Shown here: one piece after another, positions 2,952 to 8,697 of the stretch | Position numbering within the stretch: the stretch's first letter is position 1 | Layout of the letters: each line of letters opens with the position of its first letter | Assembly (NCBI GenBank): GCA_905480565.1 | Contig: CAJQQW010000033.1 | Span: forward strand, 1-10,195 | From: an uncultured Halioglobus sp. | GTDB taxonomy: Bacteria > Pseudomonadota > Gammaproteobacteria > Pseudomonadales > Halieaceae | Direction: 5' to 3' | DNA length: 10,195 nt | Notes under the pieces: model-generated | Told to the model about the DNA's origin: nothing | Seen by the model: only the letters and a program-made list of their open reading frames with translations | Database searches by the model: none | Made by a program: the position numbers and the translations under genes

Positions 2952-3007
2952 ACAGGCTAAACTAGGGCAATAAGAGAGGGGAATAAGAACCACTGGGGGT
3001 AATAGTG

Positions 3008-3406
3008 ATGAAAATAAAATCAGCTACACGTCGGGCCACGGCTGCCCTGCTAATCAGTTGTCTGGCGATGCCGCAGATATTATGGGCGCAGCAGGCTGTG
3101 GACGAAAGCCCGAGTGAATGGGCAATGGTGGGTGATCTGCTTGTGGCGAGGCCTATAGGTTTGGTGCTTACCGTGGGCGGAGCTGCAGTGTTTCTGGTCA
3201 GCTTGCCATTCACGCTGCTGGCAGGGCATGCCAGTGAAGCGGCCGATACCCTGGTTGCTGGGCCGGCTGAAACCACGTTTATGCGCTGCCTTGGTTGTCG
3301 ACAGCCCGGCTATACCAACAAGGATAGCGAGGCGATCAAGCGTCGTGAAGAAAGGCGTGCCGCCGAAAAAGCTGATTTGGAATCCGCCGCGCAGACAGAC
3401 TCCTGA
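3008..3406 (+). CDS. Small exported or membrane protein of unknown function
   Basis: I do not recognise a characterised function. The 132-residue product has a basic N-terminus (KIK...RR) and a hydrophobic stretch to about residue 27, consistent with a signal peptide. A lipobox-like LISC (15-18) makes lipoprotein processing possible, while cleavage near A27 or A30 is the alternative. A second hydrophobic segment (about 44-73) contains ARPIGLVLTVGG and SLPFTLLAG. It is followed by EAADTLVAGPAETTFMRCLGC with a CxxC at 94-97, then a charged Lys/Arg/Glu-rich tail. From memory, small proteins with an ARPxGL...VSLPFT core occur next to housekeeping genes in many gammaproteobacteria, sometimes mislabelled as transporters. 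The ATG at 3008 has GGGGG at 2995-2999; a GTG at 3005 is equally possible. A weak promoter, GTGACC-N18-TAAACT, lies at 2934-2963. It converges on coaD with 8 bases between the stop codons. Confidence 0.75.
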   Translation: MKIKSATRRATAALLISCLAMPQILWAQQAVDESPSEWAMVGDLLVARPIGLVLTVGGAAVFLVSLPFTLLAGHASEAADTLVAGPAETTFMRCLGCRQPGYTNKDSEAIKRREERRAAEKADLESAAQTDS

Positions 3407-3414
3407 GGTCTGCA

Positions 3415-4580
<1,166 letters not shown>

Positions 4581-4751: not shown

Positions 4752-6070
<1,319 letters not shown>

Positions 6071-6074
<4 letters not shown>

Positions 6075-6736
6075 TCACCTTCGACCGGGTCAGTAAGCGC
6101 TTTGGGGAGGGCCACGACGCTCTTAGGGAGGTCAGCTTTGAAATAACCCGGGACGAATTGGTATTTCTCACCGGCCACTCCGGTGCGGGCAAAAGTACGT
6201 TGCTGCGGCTCATTATGTTGATGGACCGCCCCACCCGGGGCCAGGTAGTGGTTGACGATCAAAACCTGGGAGAGGTGCGCCCGCGCGGCATACCAAGACA
6301 CCGGCGGAATATCGGCGTTGTATTCCAGAATCATCGGCTGCTGCACGATCGGTCAGTTTTCGACAATGTGGCATTGCCGCTGGTCATAGCAGGCTATGAC
6401 TACCGCGAAGTTGGGCGGCGGGTGAGAGCCGCTCTCGATAAGGTCGGGTTGCTAAAGCGCGAGCATGCTATGCCCGTCACCCTTTCTGGTGGCGAGCAGC
6501 AGCGCGTTGGGATTGCGCGAGCGGTGGTGGGCAAGCCAAAAATTCTTCTGGCCGACGAGCCCACGGGCAACCTCGACCCGGAGCTCTCCGCGGAGATCAT
6601 GAACCTGTTTGAGCAATTCAATCAGGTGGGTGTCACAGTCCTGATTGCCAGCCATGATCTGGTTCTGATTGCCCGCATGCAACACCGTCTCCTCACCCTG
6701 CGTGAGGGCGGCCTCGTCACTGGGGGTGCGCTGTGA
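6071..6736 (+). CDS. ftsE: Cell division ATP-binding protein FtsE
   Basis: FtsE is the cytoplasmic ATPase of the FtsEX complex, an ABC-type mechanotransmitter at the division ring that activates septal peptidoglycan hydrolases through periplasmic partners such as EnvC. The 221-residue protein shows Walker [10 protein letters not shown] (35-43, K41), the Q-loop VVFQN (Q86), the ABC signature LSGGEQQR (138-145), Walker B ILLADEP with D162 and E163, the D-loop GNLD, and the switch histidine in ASHD. Length and motif positions match E. coli FtsE closely. The start ATG overlaps the ftsY stop as ATGA, and the gene overlaps ftsX by four bases, which indicates translational coupling. Nothing is atypical. 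Confidence 0.97.
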
Positions 6737-7713
6737 GCGAACGCCGGGAAAGCTCTTCCCGCCGAGGGGGCGCGAGTCACAGCCGGGCCGGGCTCCGTGA
6801 TCAATACAACGCGTGGTTACAACACCATCGGTTGTCGGCGGCGGATAGTTTGTCGCGTGTGCTGGGCCAGCCGGGAGCGAGTCTGCTCACCTGGCTGGTG
6901 ATCGGTATTGCACTGGCATTGCCAGTGGGTCTGAATATCGCGCTGGATAATATCAACCAGTTAAGAGCCAGCTGGGAGAGCCCCGCCAGTATTTCCGTAT
7001 TTCTCGAGGTGCGGATTAGCGAGGAGGAGGCGCGGCAATTGCAGGTCGAGCTGGCGAGCTGGGAGCAGGTCAGAGAGACGCGTTTGATTGCGCGAGACGA
7101 GGCGTTGGATGAGTTCCGCAGTCTCTCCGGGTTTGCCGACGTCCTGTCCAGCCTAGAGGAAAACCCCTTGCCGCATCTGATTCTGGTAACGCCAGTTGCA
7201 TCCGGTGATGACCAAATGACTGACCTTCATGCGCAGCTGCAACAGCATGAGGGAGTGGCAGAGGCGGTGCTGGACATGGCCTGGTTGCAACGGCTGGCCA
7301 GTGTGATGGAGCTGAGTCGACGACTGGTGATCGCAATTGGCGGCATGCTGGTCATCGGCGTACTGCTCATTCTTGGCAACACTATTCGCCTTGCGATCGA
7401 GAGCCGCCGAGAGGAAATTGTGGTCGTGAAGTTGGTAGGGGGCAGTAATGGCTTTGTGCGCCGCCCCTTCCTGTATACCGGTCTCTGGTACGGCGTGGGC
7501 GGCGGTTTGCTGGCTGGCCTGCTGGTATCCTGTGGCCTGTGGTTTCTTGAAGAGCCAATTGGCGCACTTGTATTGCTCTACGAGAGCGGCTTCAGGCTTT
7601 CTGGCCTCGGCGTGATGGGCATTCTTAACCTGGTCATCATCGGAGGATGCCTCGGTTTGGCGGGGGCTTGGGTAGCGGTATCGCGCCACATCGCCCGCAT
7701 AGAGCCGCGCTAG
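6733..7713 (+). CDS. ftsX: Cell division protein FtsX (permease-like)
   Basis: FtsX is the membrane partner of FtsE. The 326-residue product begins at GTG (6733), which overlaps the ftsE stop as GTGA. It has a basic, Ser/Arg-rich cytoplasmic tail of about 50 residues, a first membrane helix near 50-69, and a periplasmic domain of about 130 residues that would contact hydrolase activators. Three more helices follow near 198-221, 247-272 and 290-316. The segment after the second helix (NTIRLAIESRREEIVVVKLVGG) is the hallmark FtsX region. The length is slightly under E. coli (352). It is the last gene of the ftsYEX operon. No strong terminator follows, only weak AT-rich pairings in the rpoH leader region. 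Confidence 0.96.
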   Translation: MSERRESSSRRGGASHSRAGLRDQYNAWLQHHRLSAADSLSRVLGQPGASLLTWLVIGIALALPVGLNIALDNINQLRASWESPASISVFLEVRISEEEARQLQVELASWEQVRETRLIARDEALDEFRSLSGFADVLSSLEENPLPHLILVTPVASGDDQMTDLHAQLQQHEGVAEAVLDMAWLQRLASVMELSRRLVIAIGGMLVIGVLLILGNTIRLAIESRREEIVVVKLVGGSNGFVRRPFLYTGLWYGVGGGLLAGLLVSCGLWFLEEPIGALVLLYESGFRLSGLGVMGILNLVIIGGCLGLAGAWVAVSRHIARIEPR

Positions 7714-7771: not shown

Positions 7772-7798
7772 GGAACTTTGCGCGTGTTAGCACTCTAA
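7772..7798 (+). promoter_or_regulatory. Sigma-E-type promoter for rpoH
   Basis: GGAACTT (7772-7778) exactly matches the -35 consensus of RpoE (sigma-E) promoters. A 15-base spacer leads to TCTAA (7794-7798), matching the TCnnA -10. E. coli rpoH P3 is a known sigma-E promoter of the same form with a 16-base spacer. The start point would be near 7804-7806, giving a leader of about 35 bases. The -10 overlaps the left arm of the CIRCE element. The assignment rests on sequence match and on the known biology of rpoH. Confidence 0.7.
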
Positions 7799-7813
7799 GA
7801 GATTGAGTGCTAA
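7787..7813 (+). promoter_or_regulatory. CIRCE operator (HrcA repressor binding site) upstream of rpoH
   Basis: TTAGCACTC (7787-7795), a 9-base spacer, and GAGTGCTAA (7805-7813) form an exact match to the CIRCE consensus TTAGCACTC-N9-GAGTGCTAA. CIRCE is the operator for HrcA, a heat-shock repressor whose activity depends on GroEL, and is classically found before groESL and hrcA-dnaK. All 18 defined bases match, so chance occurrence is very unlikely. The site overlaps the sigma-E -10 and covers the -35 to -10 region of a possible sigma-70 promoter, a position suited to repression. Confidence 0.93.
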
Positions 7814-7816
7814 AAT
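7787..7816 (+). promoter_or_regulatory. Possible extended -10 sigma-70 promoter overlapping CIRCE
   Basis: TAAAAT (7811-7816) is preceded by TGC, giving an extended -10 whose TG comes from the right CIRCE arm. TTAGCA (7787-7792), 18 bases upstream, is a fair -35. If real, its transcript would start near 7823, only about 17 bases before rpoH. Another AT-rich stretch further upstream (7718-7746; TTTACT and TATAAA, poor spacing) could hold a second weak promoter or act as an UP-like element. Confidence 0.4.
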
Positions 7817-7839
7817 GGGGAAAGACCAAGAGGGGGCGT

Positions 7840-8697
7840 ATGATGACAAACAGCCTACAACCTATTGACCAGATGGTGCCCGGCGCCAATCTGCCTGCTT
7901 ATGTTCAGGCCGTCAGCAGTATTCCGATACTGTCCGTAGCGCGCGAACGCGAGCTCGCGGAAAGCCTGTTTTATAATGGCGAGCTGCAGGCAGCAAGGGA
8001 ACTGGTTATGTCGCATTTGCGATTCGTTGTGCATATTGCGCGCAGCTACTCAGGCTACGGCCTCGCCGAGGCGGACCTCATACAGGAAGGTAACGTCGGC
8101 CTGATGAAGGCGGTGAAACGCTATAACCCTGAGAAGGGCGTGCGTCTTGTTTCCTTTGCAGTTCACTGGATTAAAGCGGAGATGCACGAGTTCATCCTGC
8201 GTAATTGGCGGATCGTCAAAGTGGCTACGACCAAAGCCCAGCGTAAGTTATTTTTCAATTTGCGCAGCGCCAAGAAGTCGCTCTCCTGGCTCAGTGCAGA
8301 TGAAGCCCAATCCATTGCAGATGACCTCGGCGTTGATGTCCGTGAGGTGCAGCGCATGGAGGGCCGTTTGAGCAGCAGAGATCTCGGATACGATCAGCCA
8401 GTGGATGGAGAAGACGACAGCGCCTGGCAGGCGCCGCAGTACTTTTTGGAAGATCAGAGCTCTGACCCCTCCGATATTCTGGAATCCAGTGATTGGCAGA
8501 ACAGCAATGAAGCCCTACTGCATAGTGCGATGGGCGAGCTTGATGAGCGCAGCCGGGATATTCTGGCCCAGCGCTGGCTGTCGGAGAAAAAATCGACACT
8601 CCACGACCTCGCCGATCAGTACGGTGTATCCGCCGAACGCATCCGGCAGCTCGAACAGGCGGCAATGAAGCAGATACGCGTCAGTTTTTCTGCCTGA
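7840..8697 (+). CDS. rpoH: RNA polymerase heat-shock sigma factor RpoH (sigma-32)
   Basis: RpoH directs RNA polymerase to heat-shock genes encoding chaperones and proteases. The 285-residue product (E. coli 284) has region 2 blocks SHLRFVVHIAR, ADLIQEGNVGLMKAV and VSFAVHWIKAEMHEF, the diagnostic RpoH box QRKLFFNLR (134-142), and region 4 with the helix-turn-helix GVSAERIRQLEQAAMKQIR. This separates it from RpoD and RpoS. Two adjacent ATG codons (7840, 7843) are possible starts; GAGG at 7830-7833 spaces better to the first. The region 2.1 residues that in E. coli mediate control by SRP/FtsY and FtsH (L47, A50, I54) are L49, A52 and V56 here, essentially conserved. The gene lies behind ftsYEX as in E. 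coli but has its own control region with CIRCE and a sigma-E promoter. Confidence 0.98.
   Translation: MMTNSLQPIDQMVPGANLPAYVQAVSSIPILSVARERELAESLFYNGELQAARELVMSHLRFVVHIARSYSGYGLAEADLIQEGNVGLMKAVKRYNPEKGVRLVSFAVHWIKAEMHEFILRNWRIVKVATTKAQRKLFFNLRSAKKSLSWLSADEAQSIADDLGVDVREVQRMEGRLSSRDLGYDQPVDGEDDSAWQAPQYFLEDQSSDPSDILESSDWQNSNEALLHSAMGELDERSRDILAQRWLSEKKSTLHDLADQYGVSAERIRQLEQAAMKQIRVSFSA

Follow-up and report, generated by a model that had tools for sequence, protein, structure and literature searches.

A CIRCE operator overlapping a putative sigma-E-type promoter in front of rpoH in Halieaceae

Described control of rpoH and the operator in Halioglobus

In Geobacter sulfurreducens, a delta-proteobacterium as named in that study, a perfect CIRCE at -51 from rpoH was predicted by computer in 2004, with groESL as another target, as in the genomes analyzed here; unlike here, hrcA-grpE-dnaK-dnaJ also bears a CIRCE there (PMC545781). 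The accessible text of that paper mentions no overlap of the CIRCE with a sigma-E promoter. Extracytoplasmic sigma factors that drive rpoH, as proposed below, have also been described. According to the accessible parts of the two papers, SigE of Bordetella bronchiseptica transcribes this organism's own rpoH (fam) promoter in vitro (PMC3490749; HrcA and CIRCE have no occurrences in it), and in Pseudomonas an AlgU-dependent rpoH promoter is known, cited in PMC4585239, which is like the sigma-E-type promoter proposed here. The P3 region of E. coli (NC_000913; name from the accessible text of PMC3490749) has GAACTT-N16-TCTGA upstream of rpoH and behind ftsYEX, like the sigma-E-type promoter of our locus, and is without a CIRCE, the best match having 8 mismatches. 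No HrcA was reported among the control genomes, E. coli included.

From the accessible text of these sources, a CIRCE at rpoH (as a prediction in Geobacter) and sigma-E transcription of rpoH are already known. Among the titles and abstract openings searched, no description of a CIRCE fused with a sigma-E promoter at rpoH was found; most subscription papers and the beta/gamma heat-shock survey of Permina and Gelfand (2003/4) lie outside this scope, and an earlier prediction of a CIRCE at rpoH in beta or gamma genomes may exist. As far as this search extends, the overlap of CIRCE and putative sigma-E promoter at rpoH would be a new form of HrcA control.

The locus studied here lies in a stretch of 10,195 bp (the window) from an uncultured Halioglobus sp. 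Its RpoH finds its best named matches in Halioglobus, Haliea and Parahaliea records, and some of these share hrcA coordinates with genomes of the sampled family, which suggests Halieaceae. A sequence-only reading of the window had proposed a perfect CIRCE in front of rpoH, and this was borne out: the inverted repeat TTAGCACTC-N9-GAGTGCTAA has 0 mismatches to the consensus (Table 1), and the open reading frame that follows after a gap of 26 bp is RpoH by profile scores (NF005143, 415 bits with a cut-off of 241; TIGR02392, 388 bits with a cut-off of 323). The repeat is the sole CIRCE with 3 or fewer mismatches in the window. A chance origin was rejected, as 0.01 such sites are expected per window and 2 of 200 window shuffles yielded one. 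The rpoH start was placed at the ATG given in Table 1 (or at 7843); the GTG at 7807, which the ORF tool listed as a start, was rejected because it falls within the CIRCE.

The gene order of the window is ftsY-ftsE-ftsX-rpoH-DUF423-trmB, with ftsY named by its SRP54 domains, and E. coli K-12 shares the order from ftsY to rpoH. The QRKLFFNLR motif found in the window's RpoH is presumably the RpoH box, so protein-level control of sigma-32 may persist. No known RNA element matched Rfam at gathering scores anywhere in the window, and the window has no tRNA genes.

Table 1. Coordinates of the features at the rpoH locus of the window
Feature	Position	Strand	Basis
ftsX, upstream neighbour of rpoH	6733..7713	+	gene order as in E. 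coli K-12
-35 GGAACTT of putative sigma-E (RpoE/AlgU, ECF02-type) promoter	7772..7778	+	GAACT at same CIRCE distance in 35/36 Halieaceae
CIRCE, predicted HrcA operator	7787..7813	.	18/18 consensus positions; 0-1 mismatch in 36/36 Halieaceae genomes
-10 TCTAA of putative sigma-E promoter, inside CIRCE	7794..7798	+	in-register TCNNA; N15 spacer to -35
TGCTAAAAT, extended -10 of putative sigma-70-like promoter, over right CIRCE arm	7808..7816	+	T at 7816 in 36/36
Probable ribosome binding site AGAGGGGG	7829..7836	+	sequence inspection
rpoH, heat-shock sigma factor sigma-32, 285 aa, with QRKLFFNLR	7840..8697	+	NF005143, TIGR02392

Promoter-like elements under the CIRCE

Sigma-E promoters have the consensus GGAACTT at -35 and TCNNA at -10, separated by about 15-16 bp; the DNA upstream of E. 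coli rpoH served as a check on it. The putative -10 of the window, TCTAA, is composed of the last 2 bases of the left CIRCE arm and the first 3 bases of the CIRCE spacer. When the 36 Halieaceae genomes were aligned on the CIRCE, the strongly conserved columns were GGAACTTT at -15 to -8, the CIRCE itself, TAA at 10-12 and AAT at 28-30. These islands stand far above their neighbouring columns, those flanking the -35 being near zero bits, and GGAACTTT is the longest conserved stretch outside the CIRCE.

GAACT is in register in every Halieaceae genome except G021. TAA at the spacer columns 10-12 is present in 33/36 (exceptions G021, G024 and G028) and A12 in 34/36; GAACT and TCNNA occur together in register in 34 of the 36 genomes. 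There are counterexamples to the coupling of GAACT and TAA: G028 has GAACT without an in-register TAA, and so has G039, which reads TCTCT. An RpoE-type sigma factor was detected in the window's own genome with 316 bits (cut-off 236), and 53 of 57 genomes, this one included, have RpoE above the cut-off.

The sigma-70-like TGCTAAAAT is the weaker promoter call because no good -35 accompanies it. Its last base, T30 of the CIRCE-aligned columns, is invariant in Halieaceae and is found at 82 of 93 sites of the class survey described below and in 1 of 16 groESL CIRCEs. We considered AAT at 28-30 as a symmetric extension of the CIRCE and rejected this, since the mirror columns -3 to -1 are less conserved and non-complementary, and T30 is not a shared feature of the groESL CIRCEs.

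The loci of G021, L147 (Halieaceae CPC75) and L150 (Luminiphilus, hrcA not found) are without the sigma-E -35 and without TAA and have kept the CIRCE, followed by AAT in L147 and L150 and by TAT in G021. The RpoE match of G021 (G021:C2:22041-22595) is barely below the cut-off, with 233 against 236 bits. Judged by these alignments, the CIRCE at rpoH, lying on conserved promoter-like elements of a heat-shock gene, is real and conserved.

Distribution of the operator, hrcA and further HrcA targets

All 36 sampled Halieaceae genomes, including that of the window, carry the CIRCE at rpoH (31 perfect, 5 with 1 mismatch), and in 34 of them it lies 24-31 bp from the aligned RpoH start. hrcA was found in 35 of these genomes, the exception being the window's own, and in 6 of 21 genomes from other families of the order. 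Outside Halieaceae, the 6 hrcA-bearing genomes of the order all have a CIRCE at rpoH with 0-2 mismatches. Among the 15 without hrcA, 12 have none (at least 7 mismatches), and the remainder comprise G051 with 1 mismatch, G037 (75% complete) with 2 and G036 with a 5-mismatch trace. The repeat noted by the sequence-only reading has thus not been lost upstream of rpoH in the family, and the CIRCE tracks hrcA.

A set of 80 named rpoH loci included 12 with a CIRCE at 0-1 mismatch. hrcA was checked in 30 of the 80, some of which are genomes of the relatives sample (L131 and G019 share hrcA coordinates). All 10 named loci with hrcA carry the CIRCE at rpoH, for example Parahaliea mediterranea TN14-10, Haliea sp. 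E1-2-M8 and a Ketobacter MAG. The 20 loci without hrcA comprise L150 with a perfect CIRCE, Gilvimarinus with a 4-mismatch trace and 18 others without a CIRCE at rpoH (at least 6 mismatches), including Pseudomonas putida, Marinobacter shengliensis and Halomonas gemina.

Gammaproteobacteria in the GTDB sense include the beta group. The class was sampled with one genome per family (n=140), of which 130 had RpoH and 104 had HrcA; leaving out the window's own genome and the 10 in which no RpoH match reached 1e-50 gave 129, and 7 of the 104 hrcA-bearing genomes were among the losses. A CIRCE was counted when it had 3 or fewer mismatches and lay no more than 420 bp ahead of the first RpoH residue in the alignment. 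It was present at rpoH in 88/97 genomes with hrcA vs 5/32 without (Fisher p 2.5e-15, uncorrected for descent), which leaves 9 hrcA-bearing genomes without a CIRCE at rpoH and the 5 hrcA-less genomes with one as exceptions to the pairing. In 76 of the 97 hrcA-bearing genomes the CIRCE had 0-1 mismatch. On the RpoH tree, with the window's genome and G037 not included in the hrcA count, hrcA changed at least 6 times, but well supported branches require only 2 of these changes, a number too small for a sign test; a descent-corrected test of the association was therefore dropped as underpowered.

The overlap of the CIRCE with a sigma-E-type promoter is found again at roughly two thirds of the sites in the class. 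GAAC at -16 to -12 was found at 63 of 93 CIRCE sites (60 of the 88 in hrcA-bearing genomes) and was absent from 30; in 51 sites it lies one base further from the CIRCE than in the window. A12 accompanies GAAC in 57/63 sites (6 are without it), compared with 13/30 sites without GAAC (p 2.4e-6, uncorrected for descent). This association is what one would expect if TCNNA served as the -10. T30 is independent of GAAC, being present in 56/63 sites with it and in 26/30 without. The distance from the CIRCE to the first aligned RpoH residue ranges from 50 to 245 bp across the 93 sites. When a sigma-E-like site was allowed anywhere upstream of rpoH, it was found in 49/97 genomes with hrcA and in 8/32 without, where mononucleotide shuffles lead one to expect 1.5%.

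For other classes of the phylum, 20 genomes from 20 of 23 sampled families were used, each with its best-matching RpoH copy and regardless of hrcA. A CIRCE at rpoH had 1 mismatch in one genome and 4 mismatches in another, and 18 had none (at least 7 mismatches). The one-mismatch case, L342 (G232), is the only one of the 20 with 3 or fewer mismatches and has no sigma-E motif.

Individual loci showed further arrangements. L281 (G064) has a second CIRCE, TTAGCAGTC-N9-GAGTGCTAA (1 mismatch), directly before the perfect one at rpoH, forming a tandem double operator. A CIRCE with 0-1 mismatch at rpoH was seen without a detected HrcA in L117 (G051), L322 (G174), L327 (G070), L308 (G137), L314 (G167) and L150 (Luminiphilus); suggested explanations for such genomes are that hrcA was missed, that it was lately lost or that there is another reader of the CIRCE. 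The CIRCE of L307 (G123, hrcA not detected) has lost one base of its right arm and follows an intact GAACTT, some 92 bp ahead of the first RpoH residue in the alignment; it may be an operator in decay, with the left arm still in use as a -10.

As a control set, 18 CIRCE loci with a GroEL peptide motif were collected; two pairs were the same site, which gave 16 genomes of the order (12 of them Halieaceae). The operator of this classical HrcA/CIRCE arrangement at groESL is the same as at rpoH. However, at groESL it stands in most cases behind a sigma-70-like TTGAC..TAGAAT promoter, unlike the sigma-E-type overlap at rpoH: TTGAC was found in the upstream -35 region in 12/16, GAAC at the sigma-E distance in 0/16, and A12 in 1/16. 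A sigma-32-like site, CTTGA followed by a C-rich part, lies downstream of the groESL CIRCE in 12/16.

With up to 2 mismatches allowed, 29 of the 36 Halieaceae genomes have two CIRCEs and 7 have one, among them the window's genome. One lies at rpoH in all 36, and the second lies at groESL in all 12 of the 29 genomes in which it was identified. Since both CIRCEs belong to groESL and rpoH, there is none at dnaK in those 12 Halieaceae. Of the two places where the sequence-only reading had proposed to search for further CIRCEs, groESL was confirmed in these 12 genomes and dnaK was not. A sigma-32-like motif, CTTGAA..CCCCA, is present at 24/30 hrcA loci (L002-L031), nearly always shortly downstream of hrcA, which is grpE's place in G003. 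Because it sits just behind hrcA, grpE-dnaK-dnaJ may be induced separately from hrcA. From the distribution of these sites, HrcA seems to act on groESL and rpoH only, and the remainder seems to be reached via sigma-32.

Proposed gating of rpoH and alternative readings

We consider it probable that the HrcA operator is fused to the rpoH promoter and that HrcA-GroEL gates both sigma-E and housekeeping transcription of rpoH. HrcA activity depends on GroEL. Kept active by GroEL, HrcA would occupy the CIRCE and block the sigma-E and sigma-70 holoenzymes. Once misfolded proteins fill GroEL, HrcA would release and rpoH would become transcribable, strongly so if sigma-E were also active. Sigma-32 would then raise GroESL, through the sigma-32-like site downstream of the groESL CIRCE, and other chaperones, and replenished GroEL would make HrcA active again and shut rpoH. 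HrcA would have two operators, groESL and rpoH, and the other genes of the heat-shock regulon would be reached through rpoH. The dependence of HrcA on GroEL, taken with these sites, would close a loop from GroEL through HrcA, rpoH and sigma-32 back to GroEL. The two heat-shock circuits in series that the sequence-only reading had proposed are therefore plausible as far as the sites go, with HrcA and sigma-32 at groESL and HrcA at rpoH as such a circuit needs; that reading had overlooked the sigma-E-type promoter under the CIRCE.

In another reading, HrcA would repress the sigma-70 promoter TGCTAAAAT alone, and GGAACTT-TCTAA would be a sigma-E promoter unhindered by HrcA, or no promoter; this would be the simple HrcA control envisaged by the sequence-only reading. 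It would account for the conservation of T30 both with and without GAAC and for the CIRCE being kept at loci without the sigma-E -35. However, GAAC tracks A12 across the class, and in Halieaceae no conserved island outside the CIRCE is longer than GGAACTTT. As the sigma-E -10 lies within the operator, bound HrcA should also exclude the sigma-E holoenzyme, and we regard repression of the sigma-70 promoter alone as unlikely. Still less can be said for the inverted repeat acting chiefly as RNA, that is, as a 5' UTR hairpin that affects the stability or translation of rpoH mRNA, which we hold to be highly improbable. CIRCE has been argued to act as an RNA hairpin in some transcripts, the repeat of the window is perfect and close to the start codon, and read-through from ftsX would transcribe it. 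A hairpin at the ribosome site would not be expected to vary in distance as the class sites do, however, and it is the arm sequence itself that is conserved and the presence of hrcA that the repeat tracks. Transcripts from the predicted promoters would not hold both CIRCE arms, because the predicted starts, near 7805 for sigma-E and 7823 for sigma-70, lie inside or past the CIRCE.

The CIRCE could also be a relic if hrcA had truly been lost in the window's species. No PF01628 match for hrcA was found in the window's assembly (G000; 3.1 Mb, 465 contigs, 74% complete), which has a contig gap at the expected position of the gene; the single CIRCE of this assembly and the good CIRCEs of some genomes without hrcA would agree with a relic. 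The sister genome G003, whose RpoH is 99% identical, has HrcA by Pfam in the order recN-hrcA-grpE-dnaK-dnaJ (other names by eye). Against this query, contig C456 of G000 stops at 4307, about 25 bp short of the hrcA start at 4333, and contig C131 starts directly past grpE, at 6111; both contig ends were deduced from the extents of loci L207 and L208. As the two contigs end on either side, hrcA and grpE were placed in the gap. Only 77 bp of the groESL region of G003 were found in G000, at a contig end. Loss of hrcA in the window's species was rejected on these grounds, with the contigs ending at the gene and nearly all of groESL missing too, and a gap in the assembly best explains why it is absent from G000. 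Considering also that the other 35 Halieaceae genomes, the sister included, have hrcA, a relic CIRCE is the least probable of these readings. The hrcA gene that the sequence-only reading had proposed to search for was missing from this assembly and present in the other sampled genomes of the family.

If HrcA gates sigma-E transcription of rpoH as proposed, a wider evolutionary reading is possible, which we put forward tentatively. The CIRCE-on-sigma-E rpoH promoter would be an ancestral fused element of the Gammaproteobacteria that keep hrcA, by which HrcA-GroEL gates the passage of envelope stress to the cytosolic heat-shock regulon. The bare sigma-E rpoH promoters of lineages without hrcA (E. 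coli P3, Pseudomonas) would be remnants after loss of the gate, with the left arm sometimes surviving as the -10. Textbook control of rpoH derives from E. coli, which is without HrcA, and if its hrcA-bearing relatives commonly carry an HrcA operator on the sigma-E rpoH promoter, the E. coli scheme would be a reduced special case. If true, rpoH would combine two stress signals at the DNA level, the sigma-32 level would depend on GroEL, by way of HrcA, and not on DnaK alone, and about 45 bp of DNA would suffice to test how the cytosolic and envelope stress responses are joined.

Two features elsewhere in the window were also recorded. A 133-aa ORF without a Pfam match lies at 3005-3406 (+), between mutM and coaD (named by eye), and a long 6-bp tandem repeat (GAACCA/GAGCAG) at 4929-5128 encodes an acidic stretch, rich in EP/EQ, in the N-terminal part of FtsY.
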